Shown piece after piece: positions 4,883 to 19,092 of a stretch of DNA of 23,452 nt (positions are counted from its first letter, which is position 1; each line of letters begins with the position of its first letter). Source of the DNA: an archaeon (lineage in GTDB: Archaea > B1Sed10-29 > JAJSAI01); assembly GCA_024274695.1 (NCBI GenBank), contig JAJSAI010000018.1, positions 1 to 23,452 on the forward strand, given 5' to 3'. A model generated the notes under the pieces. That model was not told where the DNA came from, searched no databases, and saw only the letters and a program-made list of their open reading frames with translations. The translations under genes were made by a program, and so were the position numbers.

Positions 4883-5346
4883 CACCTCTTTTTCCTGCGG
4901 GTCCTTCTGGCGGTTTTCTTACTGGAAGTCGCTGTCTTCTTCTTGCCGGAGGATTTTGATCTTGCGGTTTTCTTGCGCGTGGCAGGTTTTTTCCGAGTCT
5001 TCTTAGCGGAGGTCTTGACAGGCTTTACTTCTTGTCTGGCTCTCCTTTCTTCGTACCGTTCCACTCTTCCCGAAACCCACCGGGACACCAGCTCGGGCGT
5101 GATGTATATCCCCGAGACCCAGAGTACCGCTCCCACAAGCCAGAGCGTGAGACCGGCGTAAATGTACCCGTGGGCACACGCCTGAACCGGGCACATTCTC
5201 ACGAACGCCTCTCCTGTCATCGGATCAACATCCTGGCATGGCACGAGAGGACAGGTTGTTGACATTATGATATAAACAGCGCCTATGACGGCGAGGAGTA
5301 TTCCAAGCCTCTTCACGTACTCATTAAGATGAGTTTCCCGTCTCAT
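4882..5346 (-). CDS. Two-helix membrane protein with a histone-H1-like Lys/Arg tail
   Basis: From the ATG at 5346 the protein has 154 residues. A short basic N-terminus is followed by helix 1 (about 12-30), a 30-residue loop with four cysteines arranged as C32-P-x3-C37 and C52-P-x3-C57, helix 2 (about 61-82), and a tail from about 90 that is almost wholly K, R, A, T and S from 105 to 154. The positive-inside rule puts both ends in the cytoplasm and the cysteine loop outside, where disulfides could form. The tail resembles histone H1 C-termini, so DNA or RNA binding at the membrane is a reasonable inference. I do not recognise the family. A longer upstream frame exists, but a TATA element 24-30 bases before 5346 supports this start. 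Confidence 0.75.
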   Translation of the reverse strand: MRRETHLNEYVKRLGILLAVIGAVYIIMSTTCPLVPCQDVDPMTGEAFVRMCPVQACAHGYIYAGLTLWLVGAVLWVSGIYITPELVSRWVSGRVERYEERRARQEVKPVKTSAKKTRKKPATRKKTARSKSSGKKKTATSSKKTARRTRRKKR

Positions 5347-5368
5347 GACAACAAATAAAAACAGAAGT

Positions 5369-5378
5369 GTTTTTAAGT
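5369..5378. promoter_or_regulatory. Symmetric TATA element serving divergent leaderless genes
   Basis: The sequence gtttttaagt reads acttaaaaac on the other strand. It lies about 24-30 bases from the minus-strand ATG at 5346 and about 24-29 bases from the plus-strand GTG at 5399. One element could therefore serve both directions. Both start assignments depend on it. Confidence 0.5.
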
Positions 5379-5398
5379 CTTTCGGGGATAAAATCACT

Positions 5399-6055
5399 GT
5401 GAAAGAGAATATTCTCCTCCTGGGAGATAGCGTTGAGCTACTGAAAAAGGTACCTGACGAGACTGTTGATCTCATTTTTGCAGATCCCCCATTTACACTC
5501 GAAGAGGTGCATCCCCCTGTCCGATGCGACTATTTAACTTGGACAAGGCAGTGGATGAAGGAATGTGTCAGGGTTTTGAAGAGGACTGGTTCAATTTATA
5601 TTCAGATGAGCAGTGATTATGCTCCTTTTGTGTTTAATATCGCAATAAAAGAGGGGCTTTACTATAAGAATTGGATTGTATGGAAGCATTCATATGTATG
5701 TCAAGAAAGAAAGAGGTTTGGGAAAGCATATACACCTATCCTTTTCTTCACGAGGCACTCTTCGAAGTATTCTTTTAATGTTCAAGAAAAAGAAGACTGT
5801 GTAGATACCTGGTTTACAGATAAATCAGAGGAAGAGGCTACTAGAAAAATAGACGAGTTGTCAACACCCTCAAGTATTTTGGAGAGAATAATAAAAACAA
5901 GCAGTAACAAAGGAGATCTAATTCTTGATCCGTTTGTAGGTTCTGGAACGTCACTGGTTGTGGCAAAAAAGTTTAACCGTAGATATATTGGTTTCGATTC
6001 ATCAGAATATAAAATAAAGTTAGCACTAAGAAGATTAAAACAGGTCAGCTCTTAA
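5399..6055 (+). CDS. DNA methyltransferase, N4-cytosine/N6-adenine beta-class, orphan
   Basis: This 218-residue protein has motif IV, D-P-P-F, near its N-terminus and motif I, D-P-F-V-G-S-G-T, near its C-terminus. That order places it in the beta class of amino-methyltransferases, acting on N4-cytosine or N6-adenine. The final G-F-D of the SAM pocket and a C-terminal P-S-S-I-L-E-R-I-I segment are also typical. It is compact, with little room for a large target-recognition domain. The GTG at 5399 fits the TATA at 5369-5378; an in-frame ATG at 5345 would overlap the start codon of the divergent gene. No restriction enzyme is visible nearby, so it may be solitary. The gene is AT-rich (21/60 G+C at 5641-5700) and marks the left edge of the island. 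Its end overlaps valS by 11 bases. Confidence 0.85.
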   Translation: MKENILLLGDSVELLKKVPDETVDLIFADPPFTLEEVHPPVRCDYLTWTRQWMKECVRVLKRTGSIYIQMSSDYAPFVFNIAIKEGLYYKNWIVWKHSYVCQERKRFGKAYTPILFFTRHSSKYSFNVQEKEDCVDTWFTDKSEEEATRKIDELSTPSSILERIIKTSSNKGDLILDPFVGSGTSLVVAKKFNRRYIGFDSSEYKIKLALRRLKQVSS

Positions 6056-7268
6056 TTGTTATAGAGTTATTGTCTAATAGGATTTCTCCAGCGCCTTCTT
6101 CTTCGAAAGAAATATCTTTTACGAAGAGAGATAGAAGAGTTTCTCTGATGAATTCACGAAGTTTATCAGTAGTTGGTCCGTGGAATATTACTTTTGAAAT
6201 CTCCTCTTTTAAAGAAAGTGAGTTCTTGCTTTTGTAGGTTCTTATAGCAGAGACAAAGTTTAAAACAGTTTTTGTCACTTCCTCTTCTACCTTTGGAGAT
6301 TCTGCTTCATATTCTGGCCACTCTTCTAAGTGTACTGACTCTGTTTCAGAATGGTTTAGGAATTCATGGTATATCTCCTCTGTTATATGCGGGATGAATG
6401 GAGCCATCAACCGATTGAATTCGTCAAGAAGTTTGTAACATACTTTCCCCACAACTTTATCCCCTGCGTAAACTCTTGGCTTTATCATCTCTAAGTAATA
6501 ATCGCATACCTCTGACCACCAGAAGGACCGCAGGATTTCAAGTGCTTTAGCGAACTCGTATTTGTCAAGTAGATCTGTAACCTCTTTCTTCACTTCGTTT
6601 AATCTTCCAAGTATCCACTCGTCCATGATCTTTATGTCCTTATAATCTAGTGATTTCTCTTCTTTGGATAAGGTGCTGAATGTCTTGTGAAGGAGGAATG
6701 CAGAGTTAAAGTATTTTTGGAGGAATTTGCTGGCATAAATTAGTTTCTTCCAGTCAAGCGGGTAGTCTTCTCCTAGAGATGCGCTTAGAGCCCACTGTCT
6801 TAAACAATCCGCCCCGTACTTTTCAAGGACTTCCTCTGGAGGTACTATGTTCCCATGAGATTTGTCCATTTTTTTACCATCTGGGCCTGCTACCATACCA
6901 TTTATGACAATGTCTTTGAACGGCGCTTTTCCGGCTAAAATCAGGGCTCTGAAAATGGTGTAGAAGGCCCAAGTTCTGATTATGTCATACCCTTGCGGTC
7001 TCAAGGTCACAGGGTATGTTTTCTTGAAAAATTCCTCGTTTCTCTTCCATTTCGTTATAACGAGAGGAGTTATGGATGAATCTACCCAGCAATCGCAAAC
7101 ATCTGTAGAGCCATTTATGTTCGTAGAACCACATTTGGGGCATTTGTCTACTGGCGCGGATTCTACAGCTGGATCCACTGGAACTCCCTTTAACAGTTTT
7201 TCACCGTCAGGAGGAATGATCCCCCCACAATCTTCACAGTACCAGAAGGGGATGGGAGTACCATACAC
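6045..7268 (-). CDS. ValRS C-terminal half: K-M-D-K-S segment and anticodon-binding domain
   Basis: This 407-residue frame could restart at GTG 7268, one codon after the TAA and in the same frame. It begins with Y-G-T-P-I-P-F-W-Y and contains the second zinc-like cysteine set (C-E-D-C, C-P-K-C), the W-V-D-S-S motif, K-M-D-K-S and the alpha-helical anticodon-binding region. I see no convincing Shine-Dalgarno before GTG 7268, so expression would need readthrough or termination-coupled reinitiation. Its 3' end overlaps the convergent methyltransferase gene by 11 bases. Confidence 0.5.
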   Translation of the reverse strand: MYGTPIPFWYCEDCGGIIPPDGEKLLKGVPVDPAVESAPVDKCPKCGSTNINGSTDVCDCWVDSSITPLVITKWKRNEEFFKKTYPVTLRPQGYDIIRTWAFYTIFRALILAGKAPFKDIVINGMVAGPDGKKMDKSHGNIVPPEEVLEKYGADCLRQWALSASLGEDYPLDWKKLIYASKFLQKYFNSAFLLHKTFSTLSKEEKSLDYKDIKIMDEWILGRLNEVKKEVTDLLDKYEFAKALEILRSFWWSEVCDYYLEMIKPRVYAGDKVVGKVCYKLLDEFNRLMAPFIPHITEEIYHEFLNHSETESVHLEEWPEYEAESPKVEEEVTKTVLNFVSAIRTYKSKNSLSLKEEISKVIFHGPTTDKLREFIRETLLSLFVKDISFEEEGAGEILLDNNSITIKS

Positions 7269-7271
7269 TCT

Positions 7272-8471
7272 TTATCTTGATCTAATCCAATCCCATGTTA
7301 TGCTGTTAGCCCAGTCTTCAAATCTCTTAAACATGTGTTGAGGGTACCAGTTTATCTCTTTTCCGGCTCTGAGAATGTCTGGAACAAACTCTTTTATGCG
7401 AATGAACCACTGGGGTACTGGAATAAGTTCTACGGGCGTCCTGCATGTTGCTCTCTCAGCGTGTACTAACACATTATGAGTGTATGGTTCTACTTTTACA
7501 AGGTATCCGTCCCTCTTAAGTTTTTCAGCAACTTTTTGCCTTGCTTCCTCCGCTGAAAGTCCTGCAAACTCTTGTCCAAGGTCAGTAAGTTTGCCTTCCT
7601 TGTCTATGAGAGAGTATATTGGAAGATTGTATTCTCTTTGGAGTATTACGTCCATTTCATCCCCGAAGGTACATAGATAAACGGCACCTGTTCCAAATTC
7701 CCTGTCCACTCTTTCATCGGCGATTATTGGAACACTTCTGTTGACATAAGGCACCACCGCTTTTTTCCCGACCAGGTGAGTATACCTCTCATCTTCCGGG
7801 TGAACGAATATCGCCACGCACGCATACAAGAATTCTGGACGGGTTGTTGCGATGGTTATCTTGTCCTTATCCCCGTTGGCGATTGGGAATTGTATATACC
7901 ATAGATGCCCAGGCCTTTCTTCATACCCTACTTCTGCTTGTGCTAGTGCAGTTCCACACTTGGGACACCATAGTACTGGTGCTTCACTTCTGTAGATAAG
8001 ACCCTTGTTGAAAAACTCCAACAGTGAGTACTGCACGAGAGATCTGTACTCTGGGGTGTGTGTCTCGTAATATTGGTCCCAGTCAGCAGAATATCCTAAC
8101 TGAACATACTGCTTTTTCATTTTCTTAATTGCTTTTTCAGTCCAGTCAATACAAGTCTCTATAAACTGTTGTCTATCCTCTTTTTTGACTCCATACTCAC
8201 TTTCTACCTTGAGCTCTGTGGGAAGGCCATGACAATCGAATCCAACAGGAAAGAGCACAGAGTAACCTCTCATTCTTTTGTACCTTGCTATAAAATCAAT
8301 CCAAGTATGATTCAACGCGTGACCCATGTGCAAGCTTCCAGATGTGAAGGAAGGAGGGTTGTCTATACTATAAACAGGTTTATCTGTATCCGGATCAAAC
8401 TTGAAGAGAGATAGTTTTTCCCATTTTTCTTGCCATTTCTTTTCCGTTTGCTGAGGGTTATACCGGGGCAT
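7272..8471 (-). CDS. ValRS N-terminal half: catalytic HMGH segment plus editing domain
   Basis: This 399-residue open frame is the upstream part of the interrupted valS. It holds the HMGH half of the Rossmann fold, the CP1 editing domain and the return strand up to W-D-W-I-R-S-R, and ends at the TAA at 7272-7274. It has its own GGTGA ribosome binding site, and a TATA-like tttttaaaac on the complement at about 8503-8513. If translated alone it would lack the KMSKS loop and the anticodon-binding domain and could not charge tRNA by itself. It might retain editing activity; that is speculation. Confidence 0.6.
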   Translation of the reverse strand: MPRYNPQQTEKKWQEKWEKLSLFKFDPDTDKPVYSIDNPPSFTSGSLHMGHALNHTWIDFIARYKRMRGYSVLFPVGFDCHGLPTELKVESEYGVKKEDRQQFIETCIDWTEKAIKKMKKQYVQLGYSADWDQYYETHTPEYRSLVQYSLLEFFNKGLIYRSEAPVLWCPKCGTALAQAEVGYEERPGHLWYIQFPIANGDKDKITIATTRPEFLYACVAIFVHPEDERYTHLVGKKAVVPYVNRSVPIIADERVDREFGTGAVYLCTFGDEMDVILQREYNLPIYSLIDKEGKLTDLGQEFAGLSAEEARQKVAEKLKRDGYLVKVEPYTHNVLVHAERATCRTPVELIPVPQWFIRIKEFVPDILRAGKEINWYPQHMFKRFEDWANSITWDWIRSR

Positions 8472-8493
8472 GTTCTTTCACCACTTAACGATA

Positions 8494-9789
8494 TCAGATA
8501 AAATGTTTTAAAAATTTGTGGACATTAGTTATGTAGTTATATCTTTTTAAAACAGTATTGTACCCTTCTTTTTTAATCTTGATTTGTGTTTCATCGTTCA
8601 AATTTAGAGCATGGATAAAAACATCAGCAGTTTCTTCAGAATACTGATTATACAAAAAGCCGTCTTTCCCATGGGTTATTTGCTCAGACAAACCATCTAC
8701 ATTTGAGGCAACGCATACACCGCCCTTATCCCGACACCAAATTCTAACTTCTGCGCACACCAGCCCAAAAGGCTCTGAAATTGATGGGATGACTATTAGT
8801 TTAGTATTTTTCCATTGACATAATCCAACCAATTCTTTTTTAGGTATCTTGAATGGAATAATAACTCCTCTTAATTTTAGCTTTTTAAACAAAAATTTTA
8901 AAAGATCCAAGTTTGGTTGATATCGCGTTGACTGATGTGCTATTAGCACAAAAAAGAGGTCTTTTTCTTTTTTTTGAATTTTTTGCCACAAATACAATAA
9001 TTGTTCAAATCCTTTATATTTTTCTGCCCTTCCAAAACTTATGATTACTTTGGAGTGTAATGGGATTTTATACTTTAATAATATTCTTTTTGTTTCCCTT
9101 TCTGGAATTGTAATCATTTCATTTTCAGGGATTACTCCATTTATGAGGTCTACTGCTTTTTTTCTGTCGAGTCCGTAGTCACTTATCAAATGCTTTTTCA
9201 TGAAATTGCTTATACAACCGATGTACACGTTATCGTAAAAGTTTGCTAGGTCAATACCTCCCTTTTCCCATTTGAAACGTATTGGGTCATGAGGTTTTCC
9301 CGCACGTTCTTGATTTAGTCCTGTACTATGAGGTACCCATACGATTGTAGCGTTCTTTATTTTGCTTTTAATTCGTGGCGCCTGCCTTAAGAAGTAGTAC
9401 CCTGCGTATGCATAGGGTGTGTCAAAAAGGAGGTCTAATGTCTCTTTGTCATGTCTGAAGTTGTTTAGCATTATCGATGCAGAGGAGAGAGAACTTGCGT
9501 TCCATTGAGTTAACGAACCGTATTGAAAGGTCCCTTCAGAACCATCGGATACAAAGTAAATCTGGCCGCCGTATTTTGATGTCACTTTTTGGGCTCTTTT
9601 AAGATATCTAGTATTGTATCCTAATGCACCTTTTTTTAGTGAGGGTGTTACAATGTTAAATTTTAAAGAAGCACTAATCCTAGAATGAAGGATCTGCATT
9701 ACACCAATAAATGATCTTGTAATAGTCCCTACACCACAATAACAACTCTCAATACCGTCATAGGTGTGTAAGAATAAATGTTTCATCAT
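8494..9789 (-). CDS. Glycosyltransferase, GT-B fold, family-4-like
   Basis: This 431-residue protein has the GT-B layout. An N-terminal domain carries a G-V-G-T turn at 19-22. The C-terminal nucleotide-sugar domain shows S-F-G-R-A-E-K-Y-K-G-F at 251-261 and S-I-S-E-P-F-G-L at 336-343, the E-x-F-G motif of GT4/GT5 enzymes. A later stretch, S-N-V-D-G-L-S-E-Q, fits the usual end of the donor site. Cytoplasmic sugar transfer is expected; donor and acceptor cannot be told. The sequence is AT-rich. It lies 22 bases upstream of valS on the same strand and is divergent from the radical SAM gene. Two ATGs (9789 and 9786) are possible starts. Confidence 0.85.
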   Translation of the reverse strand: MMKHLFLHTYDGIESCYCGVGTITRSFIGVMQILHSRISASLKFNIVTPSLKKGALGYNTRYLKRAQKVTSKYGGQIYFVSDGSEGTFQYGSLTQWNASSLSSASIMLNNFRHDKETLDLLFDTPYAYAGYYFLRQAPRIKSKIKNATIVWVPHSTGLNQERAGKPHDPIRFKWEKGGIDLANFYDNVYIGCISNFMKKHLISDYGLDRKKAVDLINGVIPENEMITIPERETKRILLKYKIPLHSKVIISFGRAEKYKGFEQLLYLWQKIQKKEKDLFFVLIAHQSTRYQPNLDLLKFLFKKLKLRGVIIPFKIPKKELVGLCQWKNTKLIVIPSISEPFGLVCAEVRIWCRDKGGVCVASNVDGLSEQITHGKDGFLYNQYSEETADVFIHALNLNDETQIKIKKEGYNTVLKRYNYITNVHKFLKHFI

Positions 9790-9800
9790 ACTTCAACTCT

Positions 9801-9863
9801 TTACTATATTTCAAATATCATTTACTATTTGAATGTATAACTGAAAAGTTATAATTAAATATA
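9801..9863. promoter_or_regulatory. Divergent promoter region with an 8-bp inverted repeat
   Basis: Between the glycosyltransferase and the radical SAM gene, TTCAAATA (9810-9817) and TATTTGAA (9826-9833) form perfect arms around an eight-base spacer. On the minus strand the left arm overlaps a gaaatatag TATA-like element about 20 bases before the glycosyltransferase ATG. On the plus strand ttaaatata (9855-9863) would start a leader that contains the GAGGT site at 9891-9895. The repeat could be an operator covering the minus promoter. Confidence 0.4.
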
Positions 9864-9901
9864 GCTTAAATGTACAATCAATAGCATCCCGAGGTTAAAT
9901 A

Positions 9902-11314
9902 ATGGAAAAAGAGTTTGACATTGTTTTTATTGACCCACCAAAAGTGATACTGGGTCTTCCGGAAGAAGGCAGGTCTGGGTCGTTTTTTACTTCAGAAACA
10001 GTAAAGATAAATGCAATAAACATAGGGGTTCTTAGCTTGTTTTCTTATCTTTCTTCGAAAGGTTTTAGTTGTAAGATACTGAATTTTTCAGAAGACTCTG
10101 ATTTTTCTAACGCCAAGCGTGAAATAGAAAAAATACGAGCATCCTACTTTGGGATCGGATCTCAAAGTGGTTTCGATTACCTTGAAACCCTAGAGTTGGC
10201 CCGTTTAATCAAAGAAAGTAATCAGGACAGTAAAGTGGTTATTGGAGGGCAGCATGCCGGACCCTTGGAGGAGATACCTCTGAAAGAGTCTAGAGATATT
10301 GACATCGTAGTAAAATTTGAAGGAGAGTACGTTTTAGAGGATATTCTTAAAGGAAAACTTCTTAGAGAGATTCCTGGAATTGTTTATAGAAAAGGAAATA
10401 AAATCGTGAATAATAACGGAAGATATGATCCAGTCAACATAAATGAACTTCCGTTTCTTGAATATGAAGGTTACCCAAATTATAAAAAGTACACGCCTGT
10501 CGTTGAAGAAAGTAGGGGTTGTCCCTACGGTTGTAAATATTGTACAAGCAACTGGGTGAATAAAAGACAGGTTTCAATAAAAAAACCAGAGAGATTTCTT
10601 GAAGAGATGGAATATTGCATTAGCATCTATGGTACAAAAGTAAGCTACGCGGTAAATGCGTGTACGTATGGTATGAACCCTGATTATGGAAAAAAGATTG
10701 CGATTGGTATGAAAAAATTTAATGTGAAATGGTCCTCAGAGTTTAGAGTAGATTCTCCTTGGGAAGTATATATTGATGAACTTTTGGACTCTAATTATGA
10801 AGTAGTCAATGTGGGGATGGAATCTGCGAGTCCAGAGGTTTTAATAAATATGGGGAAAACTAGAGACCCTGCGTATTACATTGGTAAAACTAAAAAACTT
10901 ATACAAAGAGTTATCAAAAGTGATGCTGTTCTCAGAGTAAATTTTATGTTTTATGCAGGGGAAACACTTAAGACAGTAAAGGAAACTCTTTCATTTTTAA
11001 TGTCTAATCCTGAAATAGATGCCATACTCTATTCTCCAGTAATAGTACTCCGTAACACTCCCCTCATGGAAAATTTTGACTTTTTTAAAAGAAAATATGG
11101 TGCTCGATATGCTAAAATAGAAAGTTGGACATCTAGACATCTTTATCCGATTCATCCCTCCAGATACTTTACTTTTGAAGAATCAATGATTCTCTCATCT
11201 CTATTCGAAAGGATTTTTAGTGACCCAGAATCATGGTGTACTGCTCAAAAATATGAAATTCACCAAACCGAAGAGGATATTCTAGCATTAAAAAGGGTAC
11301 ATTTTAATGAATAA
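9902..11314 (+). CDS. Radical SAM protein with N-terminal B12-binding-like domain
   Basis: This protein has 470 residues. Residues 1-150 resemble a cobalamin-binding Rossmann domain (V-F-I-D-P-P near the start, V-V-I-G-G-Q-H-A-G at 112-120, then F-E-G-E-Y). The radical SAM core follows, with the 4Fe-4S cysteines C207-x3-C211-x2-C214 in S-R-G-C-P-Y-G-C-K-Y-C. Later V-G-M-E-S-A and N-F-M-F-Y-A-G-E-T segments are typical of the SAM barrel. The class includes methylases and cyclases of unactivated carbon; the substrate here is unknown. GAGGT lies six bases before the ATG at 9902. The gene overlaps the deacetylase-like gene by eight bases, so a role in glycan or lipid tailoring is suggested by context only. 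Confidence 0.88.
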   Translation: MEKEFDIVFIDPPKVILGLPEEGRSGSFFTSETVKINAINIGVLSLFSYLSSKGFSCKILNFSEDSDFSNAKREIEKIRASYFGIGSQSGFDYLETLELARLIKESNQDSKVVIGGQHAGPLEEIPLKESRDIDIVVKFEGEYVLEDILKGKLLREIPGIVYRKGNKIVNNNGRYDPVNINELPFLEYEGYPNYKKYTPVVEESRGCPYGCKYCTSNWVNKRQVSIKKPERFLEEMEYCISIYGTKVSYAVNACTYGMNPDYGKKIAIGMKKFNVKWSSEFRVDSPWEVYIDELLDSNYEVVNVGMESASPEVLINMGKTRDPAYYIGKTKKLIQRVIKSDAVLRVNFMFYAGETLKTVKETLSFLMSNPEIDAILYSPVIVLRNTPLMENFDFFKRKYGARYAKIESWTSRHLYPIHPSRYFTFEESMILSSLFERIFSDPESWCTAQKYEIHQTEEDILALKRVHFNE

Positions 11315-12053
11315 ACCCAACACCACAGTATACAAAGAAATTCACCAGAAGGATTTTGTCGAGAGAGAAATGCAGCCCTCTTCATTCATTAGAATAGATG
11401 ATGTTGGAATAAGTAATGATCGTCTTTCTGATCTCTTAGAAGTTATAGAAAAAAATTCTGCAAAAGCAATTTTAGGGATAATCCCCACAAGAGTAAATGA
11501 AGAGTTGCGTGATCTCCTTTCTACGTTTAAATGCATAGAAATCGCACAACATGGTTATACTCACAGTCAACTTCTACCGCCGGGAGAGGAAAAAGGAGAA
11601 TTCTCCGAAACTCTCCCAATTCACGAGAATGAGCGGAGACTAGACAAAGGCTGGGAAATAATCTGCAGAAACTTTAAACCTAAACACAAAACATTTATTC
11701 CTCCATGGCACACTCTCCCACCAATAAAATCTCTTTTACAAAAAAACTATGAGTTGTTTTCATCTTACGGAAATAAATTCAAAGTATATTCTAATGGGAG
11801 CAGGTACATCCTTTCTGCTCCTGTAAACTTAGACCCTGTAAAGGACTATGCTTTAAAAAAGTTTTATCCTACAAAGGCTATTTGTTCATCGATTGATGAA
11901 GTTGTTGCTCGCTATGGGTATGTTGGTTTCCTATTACATCCTAATTACCTGCCCGAAAACAATCTTAATGAGATAGATCAAATAATTCAATATATAATCT
12001 CGAAATATCCCGTTTCATTTTTCTCTGAAATCTTAAAGGAGGGGAAGCAGTGA
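11307..12053 (+). CDS. Polysaccharide-deacetylase-like (NodB/CE4) hydrolase
   Basis: This 248-residue protein has the NodB motifs in order: I-D-D at 30-32 (the catalytic-base and metal aspartates), H82-x3-H86 in A-Q-H-G-Y-T-H, and F-I-P-P-W-H near 131-136 as the third motif. A late H-P-N-Y segment may be motif 5. The family removes N-acetyl or similar acyl groups from sugars using a divalent metal. No signal peptide is seen, so it probably works in the cytoplasm on a sugar or lipid-linked precursor. The ATG at 11307 sits inside the end of the radical SAM gene, with AAGGG nine bases upstream. Its stop overlaps the next gene by four bases. Confidence 0.8.
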   Translation: MNKPNTTVYKEIHQKDFVEREMQPSSFIRIDDVGISNDRLSDLLEVIEKNSAKAILGIIPTRVNEELRDLLSTFKCIEIAQHGYTHSQLLPPGEEKGEFSETLPIHENERRLDKGWEIICRNFKPKHKTFIPPWHTLPPIKSLLQKNYELFSSYGNKFKVYSNGSRYILSAPVNLDPVKDYALKKFYPTKAICSSIDEVVARYGYVGFLLHPNYLPENNLNEIDQIIQYIISKYPVSFFSEILKEGKQ

Positions 12054-12898
12054 AGCCAGATATCTCTGTTATTATTAAAAACTATAACCATGAAAAGGAG
12101 CTAGCTGCATTACTAGCCTGCTTAGAAAACCAGACTAAAAGATCATTTGAGATCATCATCGGCGACGATGGATCTTCAGATAACAGTAAAAAAGTTGCTC
12201 TACAGCACATGAAACAATCCAACTTATCCTACACTCTTTTCTGTCAAGAGGATAAAGGCTTTAGGCTCAGCACTCTCATAAATAACTGCATTTCTTTCAG
12301 TTCTGCTGATAAATTGATTCTTCTTGATGCAGATATGCTCGTCGGACGCACATTTGTTGAAGAATACTTAAATCAATTCAAAAGAAATAAAAAAAGTATT
12401 CTTTGTGGAAAGATACTGTATATAAAAACAGAATTTGTTGAAAAAATACTAAAAGATCCTTTAAAATATATTGACAAGTTGAGTCCCTTCCTTTTTAATA
12501 AGGAAGATTCGAGGATAATCAGATTCAACAACGTTGCTCCTTATAAAAAAGTGTGGGGAGGGAATGTTGGTCTTTATAAAAAAGCAGTAATGGGAATAGG
12601 TGGGTTTGATGAAGAATTCACAGAGTGGGGTGGAGAGGACACCGATCTGGGGTTTAGATTAATGCGACTAGGGTATTCAATAAAACTTCTGGACGATTGT
12701 ACTTCATATCATTTAGGGGCAGATTTTCCCCCATTAAAAGAGACATTAAACAGAGGGGGAGTTAAACTTTTTGAAAAAAAGTTACAGTCTAATGAAGGAA
12801 TTGTGCGGAATGAAAATCCTCCGGAATACGACGAGATATTAAGGGTATACACTAATAGAAGAGACAAGATAAAATGGTGGCGTTCCTCTTTGATTTAG
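12050..12898 (+). CDS. Family 2 glycosyltransferase, GT-A fold
   Basis: This 282-residue protein opens with I-S-V-I-I-K-N-Y-N-H, followed by D-D-G-S-S-D at 39-44 and the metal-binding D-A-D at 93-95. Near 170-200 are W-G-G-N-V-G and E-W-G-G-E-D-T-D-L-G, the acceptor-side motif shared with galactosyltransferase-like (7C) GT2 enzymes. There is no membrane segment. The start is GTG at 12050, sharing GTGA with the upstream stop and preceded by a strong AAGGAGGGG at 12037-12045. The 3' end overlaps the HAD gene by 25 bases. The product is probably an inverting transferase that extends a surface or lipid-linked glycan. Confidence 0.9.
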   Translation: MKPDISVIIKNYNHEKELAALLACLENQTKRSFEIIIGDDGSSDNSKKVALQHMKQSNLSYTLFCQEDKGFRLSTLINNCISFSSADKLILLDADMLVGRTFVEEYLNQFKRNKKSILCGKILYIKTEFVEKILKDPLKYIDKLSPFLFNKEDSRIIRFNNVAPYKKVWGGNVGLYKKAVMGIGGFDEEFTEWGGEDTDLGFRLMRLGYSIKLLDDCTSYHLGADFPPLKETLNRGGVKLFEKKLQSNEGIVRNENPPEYDEILRVYTNRRDKIKWWRSSLI

Positions 12899-13497
12899 AA
12901 GGTACCTTAGTTTTTGCACGCCATGTACACATTTCTGCTACAATGTACTCTCTTTCAAAAAAGAAACTCTCCTTTAAAGGATTCAAGTCATATCCAGGCG
13001 TAGATTACCCCACTCTAATTAAAAAAAACTATCCTCAACTACAAGATGAAGACCTTGAAGAAATAATAGCCAACGAAATAGAATATTTTGTTAAGAATGT
13101 TTCCAAAGTTATCCTTTTTAAGGACACTATTCCCACATTAAAAGAGATATATAAAAAAATTCCAATCGGTTTGGTGACAAATGAATACGAACAAGAGGTA
13201 AATGCGATATTAACTAATTTTAAATTATCAAAATTTTTCAAAAAAGTTTATTACTACAAAAAAGGGTCTCCAAAGAATTTCCAAACTCTAAGTGATTTTT
13301 CAAAGCGTGTTTCTTGTCCTATCCCAAAAATATGCGTAGTAGGGGACACCAATAGCGATGTTCTTTTTGCAAAAAAATATGGTTTGGAATGTTATGTAGT
13401 GGAAAGGTTTAAAGGAAATAAGATTGTAGAGTATGAAAGAATACACTTTATAAAAACTCTGCTGGATTTAATCGATATTTCATCCTCTGGACTTTGA
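12874..13497 (+). CDS. HAD-superfamily hydrolase, phosphatase-like
   Basis: This 207-residue protein has HAD motif I as F-D7-L-E9-G-T-L, motif II T102 in L-V-T-N-E, K134 in the motif III position, and motif IV G-D158-T-N-S-D162. A helical cap lies at about 20-85. Most sugar-phosphate or nucleotide phosphatases of this type have Asp, not Glu, two residues after the nucleophile, so E9 is unusual. The gene begins 25 bases inside the glycosyltransferase and ends 11 bases before the ileS start. In context it may dephosphorylate a sugar phosphate for the island pathway; this is inference. Confidence 0.82.
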   Translation: MVAFLFDLEGTLVFARHVHISATMYSLSKKKLSFKGFKSYPGVDYPTLIKKNYPQLQDEDLEEIIANEIEYFVKNVSKVILFKDTIPTLKEIYKKIPIGLVTNEYEQEVNAILTNFKLSKFFKKVYYYKKGSPKNFQTLSDFSKRVSCPIPKICVVGDTNSDVLFAKKYGLECYVVERFKGNKIVEYERIHFIKTLLDLIDISSSGL

Positions 13498-13508
13498 AGG
13501 TGGTATTA

Positions 13509-16388
13509 ATGTTTGACCACAAGACCCTGGCTGAAAAGCACCTGAAAAGATGGGAGGAGATAAACCTTCTTGACAAGAGGTGGGAGAAGAACGCTAAAGG
13601 CAAAAAGTTCTGGTACCTGGACGGCCCGCCTTACGCTAATGCACCCCCTCACATGGGACACGCGCTCACCAGAGCACTCAGGGAAGCAATAATCAAGTAC
13701 CATCTCCTGAAGGGGGATAGGGTAAGGCTCAAGCCAGGGTTTGACACTCACGGTCTTCCTGTGGAGGTTGAGGTCCAGAAAAAACTTGGCCTGACCACGA
13801 GCAAGGAAATAGAAGAGATAGGAGTTGAAAAATTCAACGAGGAATGCAGGAGGAACGCTACCGAACAGCTCTCCATATGGAAGGAGTTCTACAGGGATTA
13901 CGGGTCCAGCAGCATGTGGGACCTTGACAACCCTTACTTCACGTTCAACCCCGACTACGTTTACGCGACCTGGCGGTTCATCAAAAAGGCGCACGAAAAA
14001 GGACTGCTGTACAAGGGCAAGAAGACAGTGCCCTGGTGCCCGAAGTGCTCCACCGCACTTGCGGCTCACGAGGTCACGGAAGGGTACAAGGAAATAGAAG
14101 ACACGTCAGTGTACCTGAGGTTCAAGCTGAAAGGACGGGAGAAAGAATACCTTCTGGTGTGGACCACTACTCCCTGGACCCTGCCGGGGGATGTTGCCGT
14201 TGCAGTGCACCCCGAGTTCACGTACGCGAAGGTGAAGATCGGGGAAGACTACTACTGGATGCTTAAAGACCTTGTTGAGACCCTCACCCAAAAGCTTGGC
14301 GCGGAGAACTATGAAATAGTAGAAGAAAAGCAAGGGAAGGAAATGGAAGGCTGGGAGTACGAGCCGTTCATGTTGCCTGAAGTGCCCCTGCAAGAAGAGA
14401 TCCCGTTCAAGATAATACTCGCGGACTATGTGACCACCGAAGAGGGGACTGGCCTTGTGCACACCGCGCCGGGGTACGGTCCAGAAGACTACGAGTCCGG
14501 CCTGAAGTACGGGCTGCCTGTAGTGTGTACGGTGGACGAGAACGGGATAATGACTCAGGACGCTGGAAAATATGCAGGCATGCCTGTCTTCGAGGCTAAC
14601 AAGAGAATAGCAGAAGACCTGAAGGCCAAGGGAGTGATACTGAAAGAAGAAAAGATAGTGCACAGGTACCCTCACTGCTGGAGGTGCAAGAGCAAGCTGA
14701 TATACAGGGCTTCAGAACAATGGTTCTTCAAAGTGGGACCGCTCATAGACAAAATGCTTGAAGAGAACGAGAAAATAAAGTGGGTCCCGGACTGGGTTGG
14801 GAACAAGAGGTTCAAAGAATGGATAATGAACGCGCGGGACTGGTGCATAAGCAGGCAGAGGTACTGGGGGATCCCCCTGCCCATATGGCAGTGCAAGAAC
14901 GGGCACATTAAGGTCATCGGGTCAAAGAAAGAGTTCCTAGAGCAAGCGAGAGTGCCTGAAGACTTTGACCCTCACAAGCCATACATTGACGAGGTCAAAC
15001 TGAAGTGCGACGAGTGCGGAGAGGAAATGACGAGAGTGCCTGACGTGGCAGACGTTTGGTTTGATTCAGGAGCAGCCCCTTGGGCAAGCTTTTTCGGGGA
15101 CGACGAGGAGTTTGCCAAGTGGTTCCCCGCAGACTTCATACAAGAAGGCCTTGACCAGACCAGGGGCTGGTTCTACACCCTTCTCGTGGAAAGCACCCTC
15201 CTCTACGACCAAACCCCCTTCCTGTCCTGCCTGGTGAACGGACTGGTCCTGGACGAGAAGGGAGAAAAAATGAGCAAGAGCAAAGGGAACGTGACAGACC
15301 CCAGGGACCTCGTGAAAGAGCACGGCGCGGACGTTGTCAGACTATACCTCCTTATCAACAACGCGCCCTGGGAGAACTTCTGTTTTGACAAGGAGAACAT
15401 GAAAAAAGTTGCAGGGGACGTGCTGAACACGTACTGGAACACGTTCCTGTTCGCGAAGAAGTACTTCCAACTGCACGATTACAACGGGGAAAAGCCAATG
15501 CAGTTCGAGCCAGAAGACAGGTGGATCCTGTCACGGGCCAACAGAATGCTGCAGGTCATGGAGAGAGCGTACGATGAAGAGCTTAACACGAACAAGGCCG
15601 CCAGGGCGTGGGTTGATTTTGTGGTCAACGACCTGAGCAAGACGTACATCAAGCTCGTCAGGAACAGGATAAAAGAAGGCAAGAACCGGGAGGCTGTTTA
15701 CTACTGCCTGAAAGAAGCCATAGAGAAGGCAAGCATTGCAGGCTGCACCATAGCTCCCTTCATAACAGAGGAGGTGTACCTCGGCATTTCAGGAAAAGAG
15801 GAGAGCGTTCACCTGGAGGACTGGCCTGAAGCGGACGAGGAACTTATCGACGAAAAGCTTGAGCAGAGGATGGAAAAAGCGAAGCAGATAATAGAGGCAG
15901 GCTTGAGCCTGCGGAACGAGGTGAAAATAAAGGTAAGACAGCCCCTGCCAAAGGTCAGCGTGGAAACAGAAGACCCTGTTGTCATGGATGCTGTTAAGGA
16001 ACTAGGGCACCTGATAAAAGACCAGCTTAACGTGAAGAAGGTCCTGCTGGAGCCAGTCCAGGAGGATCTTGTCAGCAGAGAAGAGCAGTCCTTCAAGATC
16101 GGGCTGGACACAACCATAACGGATGAGCTCAGGAGAGAAGGGTACACGAGAGAGGTCATAAGAGCAATACAACAGGCCAGGAAAGAGCTGGGCCTGGTGG
16201 AAGCAGACAAGGTGATAGTCCAGATAATAGGCGGGGACCAGCTGAGGTCAGATCTTCTCGTGCAGGAAATAAAAGACGCGACAAACACTGTAGAGCTTGA
16301 TATCTCACAGGAGAAGACAGTAGAAGGAAAGGAAAAGAAGGCAAGGCTAGGGGAAGAAAAGGTAACAGTGATAGTCAAGAAAGCTTGA
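13509..16388 (+). CDS. ileS: Isoleucyl-tRNA synthetase
   Basis: This 959-residue class I synthetase charges tRNA-Ile. HMGH lies at 48-51, G-F-D-T-H-G-L-P soon after, then W-C-P-K-C, the CP1 editing domain with W-T-T-T-P-W-T-L-P, C-W-R-C, W-C-I-S-R-Q-R-Y-W-G, and K-M-S-K-S at 587-591. The C-terminal region is that of archaeal IleRS. The intact S-R-Q-R here is a useful contrast with the TAA-bearing valS. The ATG at 13509 is chosen because AAGGTGG (13497-13503) lies five bases upstream; a TTG at 13494 is in frame but less likely. The gene is GC-rich (34/60 at 15001-15060), and its start follows an AT-rich operon with no clear promoter of its own. Confidence 0.97.
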   Translation: MFDHKTLAEKHLKRWEEINLLDKRWEKNAKGKKFWYLDGPPYANAPPHMGHALTRALREAIIKYHLLKGDRVRLKPGFDTHGLPVEVEVQKKLGLTTSKEIEEIGVEKFNEECRRNATEQLSIWKEFYRDYGSSSMWDLDNPYFTFNPDYVYATWRFIKKAHEKGLLYKGKKTVPWCPKCSTALAAHEVTEGYKEIEDTSVYLRFKLKGREKEYLLVWTTTPWTLPGDVAVAVHPEFTYAKVKIGEDYYWMLKDLVETLTQKLGAENYEIVEEKQGKEMEGWEYEPFMLPEVPLQEEIPFKIILADYVTTEEGTGLVHTAPGYGPEDYESGLKYGLPVVCTVDENGIMTQDAGKYAGMPVFEANKRIAEDLKAKGVILKEEKIVHRYPHCWRCKSKLIYRASEQWFFKVGPLIDKMLEENEKIKWVPDWVGNKRFKEWIMNARDWCISRQRYWGIPLPIWQCKNGHIKVIGSKKEFLEQARVPEDFDPHKPYIDEVKLKCDECGEEMTRVPDVADVWFDSGAAPWASFFGDDEEFAKWFPADFIQEGLDQTRGWFYTLLVESTLLYDQTPFLSCLVNGLVLDEKGEKMSKSKGNVTDPRDLVKEHGADVVRLYLLINNAPWENFCFDKENMKKVAGDVLNTYWNTFLFAKKYFQLHDYNGEKPMQFEPEDRWILSRANRMLQVMERAYDEELNTNKAARAWVDFVVNDLSKTYIKLVRNRIKEGKNREAVYYCLKEAIEKASIAGCTIAPFITEEVYLGISGKEESVHLEDWPEADEELIDEKLEQRMEKAKQIIEAGLSLRNEVKIKVRQPLPKVSVETEDPVVMDAVKELGHLIKDQLNVKKVLLEPVQEDLVSREEQSFKIGLDTTITDELRREGYTREVIRAIQQARKELGLVEADKVIVQIIGGDQLRSDLLVQEIKDATNTVELDISQEKTVEGKEKKARLGEEKVTVIVKKA

Positions 16389-17985: not shown

Positions 17986-19092
17986 TTACCTTTTCCTCTT
18001 GCGCTTGTACCCTGGCACGAGAGGCCTTATCTCCTCTTCCTCTATCTGCTTGGCTTTGGCGTAGAGTCTGTCAGCCGTCCTCAAGCGCACGGCAGAGTTT
18101 GCCAGGAACCTTATGAAAGGATCAGGTGACCTTATGGCCTCGGCCCGTTTCTCGCGGGGCATGGAGTAGAACCATGATTCCACTTCCTTTTTCAGTTTCC
18201 TGGGAAGAGGATTCCTCCGGCCCGGCCAGTACCACCTGCGCAGGTTCTTTATGTCAGAGATTATCCTCTGCCACACCCTGTCAGCGTCTTCCTCTGTTTT
18301 CGCCCGCACGCCCCTCGCCTCCATGAAAGAAGGCAGACTCACGGGAAGGCTCTGTCCTATTATACTCCCATCATCCGCCACCTTCAGAGGAGGCGTTTTC
18401 CTCTGGCTCACGAGATGCTTCCTCTGGAACAGGTTCACGTACTCTGACCTGAACTCCTCGTACTCTGCAGCGGCCCTCACCCGGTACAGATTAGCCTCCC
18501 ACACTTTCCTCACTGCTTCAGCTTCCTTGCCTGGAGGGGCTTCTCTCAGGGCCCTTTCTATCTCCTCATGCAATTTTACTCCTGCTATTCTCCACGCGTC
18601 CAGATACGCTCGCGCGGGATGCACGGTCATTTTCTGCAGGGCCCAGCTTATCCTGTCAATCTCCTTGGCGAACTCTTTTTGGATCCTGCGTATCTCAGGA
18701 GTCTGGGGCCCGAGGAACGCGAACCTTTCAAGGTCTATCACGGGAGTGTGGAGCAGGAATATGCTGGCGGCTTCCTTGGCTTTCTGCGGGTCAACGAACC
18801 CAGGGCGGGACAAGTCCAGCCTTTTCCGGCCCTTCTCGTCCTTCTTCCACCCGAACAAAGACCAGAGCTCCCGAACCTCTCTCCTGTAGCTCTTGGGCAC
18901 GTACTTGAGGTTGTAGCCTTCAGGCCCGGGCAGCAGGGCGTACGCCAGCAGTGCAAGATCCCTTTTTACGGTCTCGTAGGAAACGTTGTGCAAGCGCGCG
19001 AACCTCTCGAGAGACGCGTACCTTATCTCGTCCCTGTTCTCGTGCACGTAGTCAACAAGCTCCTTCAGCCTCTCAAGGCGTTTCCTGTCCAT
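17986..19092 (-). CDS. Unknown 368-residue basic protein with N-terminal HTH-like segment
   Basis: I do not recognise this family. Residues 25-52 (A-S-L-E-R-F-A-R-L-H-N-V-S-Y-E-T-V-K-R-D) look like a helix-turn-helix of the DeoR or sigma-region-4 style. The rest is mostly alpha-helical with many charged residues, W-rich patches (for example R-R-W-Y-W-P-G-R-R-N-P near 290), and a C-terminus ending K-R-K-R-K-R. No catalytic motif or membrane segment is evident. Its ATG at 19092 lies about 27 bases below a TATA-like gtttaaaag on the complement, so leaderless transcription is likely. It is GC-rich like its neighbours, converges on the methyltransferase with an 11-base gap, and diverges from the thermosome gene. 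A nucleic-acid-binding role is an inference. Confidence 0.75.
   Translation of the reverse strand: MDRKRLERLKELVDYVHENRDEIRYASLERFARLHNVSYETVKRDLALLAYALLPGPEGYNLKYVPKSYRREVRELWSLFGWKKDEKGRKRLDLSRPGFVDPQKAKEAASIFLLHTPVIDLERFAFLGPQTPEIRRIQKEFAKEIDRISWALQKMTVHPARAYLDAWRIAGVKLHEEIERALREAPPGKEAEAVRKVWEANLYRVRAAAEYEEFRSEYVNLFQRKHLVSQRKTPPLKVADDGSIIGQSLPVSLPSFMEARGVRAKTEEDADRVWQRIISDIKNLRRWYWPGRRNPLPRKLKKEVESWFYSMPREKRAEAIRSPDPFIRFLANSAVRLRTADRLYAKAKQIEEEEIRPLVPGYKRKRKR

Follow-up and report, generated by a model that had tools for sequence, protein, structure and literature searches.

The gene for valyl-tRNA synthetase (ValRS), valS, in the analyzed window (23,452 nucleotides, the whole of contig C13 of a draft genome of 825 kb in 32 contigs, 91% complete and 0.25% contaminated) is interrupted by a single in-frame TAA codon. 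The TAA is true of the deposited sequence, yet most likely it results from an error in sequencing or assembly, one of many in this assembly. This explanation was the best supported because seven or more further in-frame stops, one per gene, as well as a frameshift were detected in conserved genes of the same genome, several of them single-copy.

valS is located on the reverse strand (8471..6045) and, apart from the TAA, is full length and intact. The frame begins with ATG at 8471, runs for 399 codons to the TAA at 7274-7272, and continues open in the same frame to the true stop at 6047-6045. The 5′ part (7275..8471, reverse strand, codons 1-399) encodes the HIGH half and the CP1 editing domain, and the 3′ part (6045..7271, reverse strand) encodes the KMSKS-like motif KMDKS and the anticodon-binding domain. 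The downstream frame comprises 408 codons when counted from the TAA and 407 from GTG 7268-7266 (reverse strand), a candidate restart codon that is preceded by ATCAAGATAAAGA, in which direct reading found neither GGAGG nor GGTG. Since two 400-codon halves of one enzyme adjoin in one frame, the interruption is not a matter of chance. Read through the TAA, the product has 808 amino acids and corresponds to a complete archaeal-type ValRS with the usual domain order. It scored 826.7 bits against NCBIfam TIGR00422 (cut-off 612.1) and 967.7 bits against PRK13208 (cut-off 738), and thus above both curated cut-offs, in agreement with the original prediction of a full-length enzyme whose frame is open on both sides of the TAA. 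The uninterrupted frame expected of a functional ValRS was not found, the TAA being present in the deposited sequence.

The TAA (7272..7274, reverse strand) occupies the Gln codon of the S-R-Q-R motif, in the context TGG ATT AGA TCA AGA TAA AGA GTG (i.e. W-I-R-S-R-stop-R-V). The read-through protein can be aligned end to end with the Thermus ValRS 1gax, the SRQ of which falls on the interrupted codon. Among 43 aligned ValRS sequences of relatives, 42 have Gln at this site and one has Asn. Because the ValRS of G005, a genome of the same order, has Arg here (SRRR), Gln comes close to being invariant without being strictly so. The identity of the lost residue was predicted correctly, as was the intact state of the motif in ileS (13494..16388, forward strand), which reads ISRQRYWG. 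None of the 86 columns that are near-invariant in the 43 relatives is broken when Gln is read in at the TAA, a count that includes the TAA-site column by assumption; hence, no decay is evident in valS besides the stop. A second odd change private to this valS is an Arg codon (AGA, 7281..7283, reverse strand), three codons upstream of the TAA, at a position with Ile or Val in all 43 aligned ValRS.

valS lies within an AT-rich block (positions 5300-13500 of the window, between proS and ileS) with a GC content of 34-41%, compared with 50-55% in the flanks. Besides valS, the block contains genes for a DNA methylase, two glycosyltransferases, a B12-binding radical SAM protein, a DUF2334 protein, and a HAD hydrolase, and it looks like a horizontally acquired island. 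The read-through ValRS groups most closely with enzymes from a different order of its class (family f9, with 61-62% identity), whereas identity to the ValRS of its own order is only 38-41%; in this grouping, the G005 branch is very long. Judged from these identities, valS has probably been replaced through transfer. Elsewhere in the window, a 368-amino acid ORF (17986-19092, reverse strand) is without a Pfam match, and an Rfam search of the window returned no match at the gathering thresholds.

To see whether valS is alone in bearing such a stop, tblastn searches with ORFs from stretches of the relatives G005, G008, and G012 were run against about 800 kb of the window's genome, and a reciprocal survey with the same filter was carried out for each of the three relatives. 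The nearest relatives available for comparison belong to other families of the same order and class. Since the closest named matches include a Micrarchaeota entry, the genome probably comes from a DPANN archaeon of Micrarchaeota affinity. Homology covered about 333 kb in the window's genome and 504 kb in the three relatives. A codon-usage scan for interrupted genes was also tried; it proved noisy and overlooked valS because of the AT-richness of this gene, and the homology survey was used instead.

Including valS, eight genes in the 333 kb had just one in-frame stop each and were conserved and complete on either side of it. The other seven genes encode (i) TFB (C29:9592, TAA); (ii) the large subunit of DNA polymerase D, PolD DP2 (C14:70042, TAG); (iii) GlmS (C5:5185, TAG); (iv) a class I/II aminotransferase (C9:5191, TAA); (v) a UbiA prenyltransferase (C12:8363, TAG); (vi) a DUF92 protein (C14:85257, TAA); and (vii) a radical-SAM protein (C29:14295, TAA). 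The stretches that hold these seven sites are labeled L123, L127, L130, L225, L226, and L147. For five of the seven (TFB, PolD, glmS, the aminotransferase, and DUF92), a search of the genome with the thresholds applied returned only the interrupted gene itself, for PolD in a second search as well. In addition, elp3 carries a one-base frameshift at about position 14520 of C10 (L128), at GAAAGG adjoining an A run, which is likely due to an A dropped from a short homopolymer. A second candidate frameshift was set aside. It concerned a Hef-like helicase and an ERCC4 nuclease (C24, about position 6480, L142), which are encoded by two overlapping frames here and form one protein in G005. This may be a natural gene pair, since a TTG overlapping the stop of the first part could serve as the start of the second.

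In the relatives, eight sites passed the filter before inspection (four in G005, three in G008, and one in G012). They were sorted one by one and by eye, and all were dismissed as antisense or out-of-gene, located in rRNA, located upstream of the start codon, or dependent on a weak gapped alignment; the G012 site (L263:18398), for example, showed a weak alignment with a gap adjoining the stop. Thus, no convincing single in-frame stop was found in the 504 kb covered in the three relatives. Eight stops against zero or one in the relatives correspond to a binomial p of 0.0006 to 0.004, and on this basis the window's genome is unusual in its scattered single lesions, located in genes that the cell could hardly spare.

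We infer that the affected bases are wrong in the assembly and not in the cell. The cell would carry a single normal valS without interruption; the TAA would be a wrong consensus base, a single substitution at the Gln codon, belonging to a scatter of base-call or consensus errors over the draft assembly. The private Arg codon just upstream of the TAA also counts in favor of this explanation. By rough arithmetic that assumes uniform substitution, eight stops would correspond to about 200 wrong bases in the 333 kb.

Several observations count against a consensus error. The eight stops are either TAA or TAG, without a single TGA. Under uniform substitution in the codons of this genome, about 4% of changes create stops and 22.5% of these are TGA, giving a chance of about 0.13 that none of eight stops is TGA. 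The replaced residues also lean towards Glu and Gln, which is what decoding of UAA and UAG would yield: the relatives have Glu at the sites in PolD (including the Pyrococcus-type DP2) and DUF92, Gln in valS, and mostly Glu, Lys, or Gln in TFB. Glu or Gln is favored at these four sites, and the other sites are variable or thinly sampled. Furthermore, gene ends are rich in TGA, which terminates 65% of homology-validated genes as compared with 35-49% in the three relatives, TAA and TAG together terminating 97 of 277. Finally, as only one clear frameshift was found, the errors would have to be mostly substitutions.

Several of these features favor the first alternative, namely that UAA and UAG have a sense meaning within certain genes, the probable decoders being Glu or Gln tRNAs that are loose at the first codon base, and still act as terminators elsewhere. 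The eight clean TAA and TAG codons lie in conserved genes, several of them single-copy, the residues at four of the sites lean towards Glu and Gln, and TAA and TAG are depleted as terminators relative to the three relatives. Nevertheless, we consider it quite unlikely. No UUA, CUA, or UCA anticodon was detected among the approximately 43 tRNAs, intron-containing ones included, in a scan that covered about 97% of the 91%-complete assembly. The Gln (UUG and CUG), Glu (UUC and CUC), and Lys (UUU) tRNAs that are present match their normal codons. ARAGORN reported three intron-containing candidates as Ser-tga, Arg-tcg, and Phe-gaa; inspection by eye identified them as Thr-UGU, Gln-UUG, and Lys-UUU, respectively, and none of them decodes UAA or UAG. 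The apparent introns of tRNA-Gln(UUG) (L150:10220-10324) and tRNA-Lys(UUU) (L231:6050-6159) seem, as judged by eye, to be situated in or close to the D arm and not in the anticodon loop.

Neither gene ends nor RNA structure pointed to decoding of these codons. A second stop within five codons downstream was found after 12% of TAA and 8% of TAG ends, as against 29% of TGA ends; since such back-up stops are rarer after TAA and TAG, there is no hint that these ends are leaky. No recoding structure was found downstream of the TAA in valS, where the RNA folds no better than shuffled sequences (z = -1.04). The relatives are without stops at the sites concerned. In a screen of more than 250,000 prokaryote genomes, only nine archaeal stop codons in the dereplicated set were inferred as sense (PMC8629427), so that almost no archaeal stop codon received a sense meaning. 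By its own statement, the screen is blind to context-dependent stops (PMC8629427). Our literature search turned up no publication about in-frame stops in Micrarchaeota. Stop readthrough, one of four possibilities that the original prediction had left unranked, is retained as a minor one on account of the lean towards Glu and Gln, the restriction of the stops to TAA and TAG, and the TGA-rich gene ends; neither a suppressor tRNA, nor a notable RNA structure, nor leaky TAA or TAG ends were found. Its more specific form, in which this archaeon of Micrarchaeota class reads UAA and UAG as Glu or Gln at some positions inside important genes (valS, TFB, PolD, glmS, and others) and uses them as terminators elsewhere, all without a dedicated suppressor tRNA, appears very unlikely.

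Slightly less credible still is a very recent true nonsense mutation that would have turned valS into a pseudogene of a redundant gene, with the working copy in a region of the genome missing from the assembly. As the genome is only 91% complete, such a copy might have escaped assembly, and because valS lies in an AT-rich stretch and groups with the ValRS of another order, it may at one time have existed alongside a native valS. A second copy elsewhere had indeed been suggested on account of the AT-rich setting, together with a search of the genome for it. The assembly contains one valS only, and in a genome of this completeness the lack of a second one makes a spare-copy pseudogene unlikely. 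Nor does valS show further decay, and a pseudogene would leave the same defect in the single-copy genes for TFB, PolD, and GlmS unexplained. Within the initial set of four possibilities, the redundant-copy pseudogene was thus weakened by the absence of a second valS and of decay, and consensus error was strengthened by the further stops and the frameshift.

A natural two-part ValRS, which would stop at the TAA, restart at GTG 7268, and have its halves join in trans, is the least credible alternative and highly improbable: the single codon between the TAA and the GTG would permit reinitiation in principle and the break is located after the editing domain, but direct reading found no Shine-Dalgarno-like motif ahead of the GTG, the motif in which the junction falls is strongly conserved and shows neither a linker nor an insertion nor a lost residue, and most of the seven other stops have no adjoining start codon. 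The proposed restart thus gained no positive evidence, including from the comparison with relatives that had been suggested along with it: in 60 relatives, some of them without a full-length match, no valS match carried an internal stop and no ValRS was divided at this point. No paper on a split ValRS was found in the literature.

If the TAA in valS is an error, the case serves only as a warning for drafts of uncultured archaea. How often single in-frame stops occur across the genome should be taken into account before any one of them is put forward as evidence for a split gene, a pseudogene, or a new code. If, on the other hand, the stops in valS, TFB, and PolD were together genuine, they would amount to dual-meaning UAA and UAG codons in archaea, a proposition that is directly testable and for which, to our knowledge, there is no earlier case.

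Compared with archaeal-type ValRS (PRK13208; TIGR00422), the valS product is alike in domain order, in its HIGH and KMSKS-like motifs, and in its scores; it differs in that the Gln of SRQR is replaced by the TAA and the nearby Ile/Val position by Arg. The α/β LeuRS of Aquifex aeolicus is a two-subunit class I synthetase, and its break likewise follows the CP1 editing domain. Unlike this enzyme, valS has no evolved junction or linker, no split relatives, and no restart signal, and unrelated genes of the same genome carry similar stops. In ciliates and some trypanosomatids, UAA and UAG encode Gln or Glu. The present genome resembles them in having in-frame TAA and TAG in important genes, at four sites where Glu or Gln is favored, but here TAA and TAG are still common terminators, the internal stops number only about eight in 333 kb, and no cognate tRNA was found. 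With errors in draft consensus sequences, finally, the genome shares both the single-base lesions, scattered among conserved genes that are intact apart from them, and the one-base change at a homopolymer.
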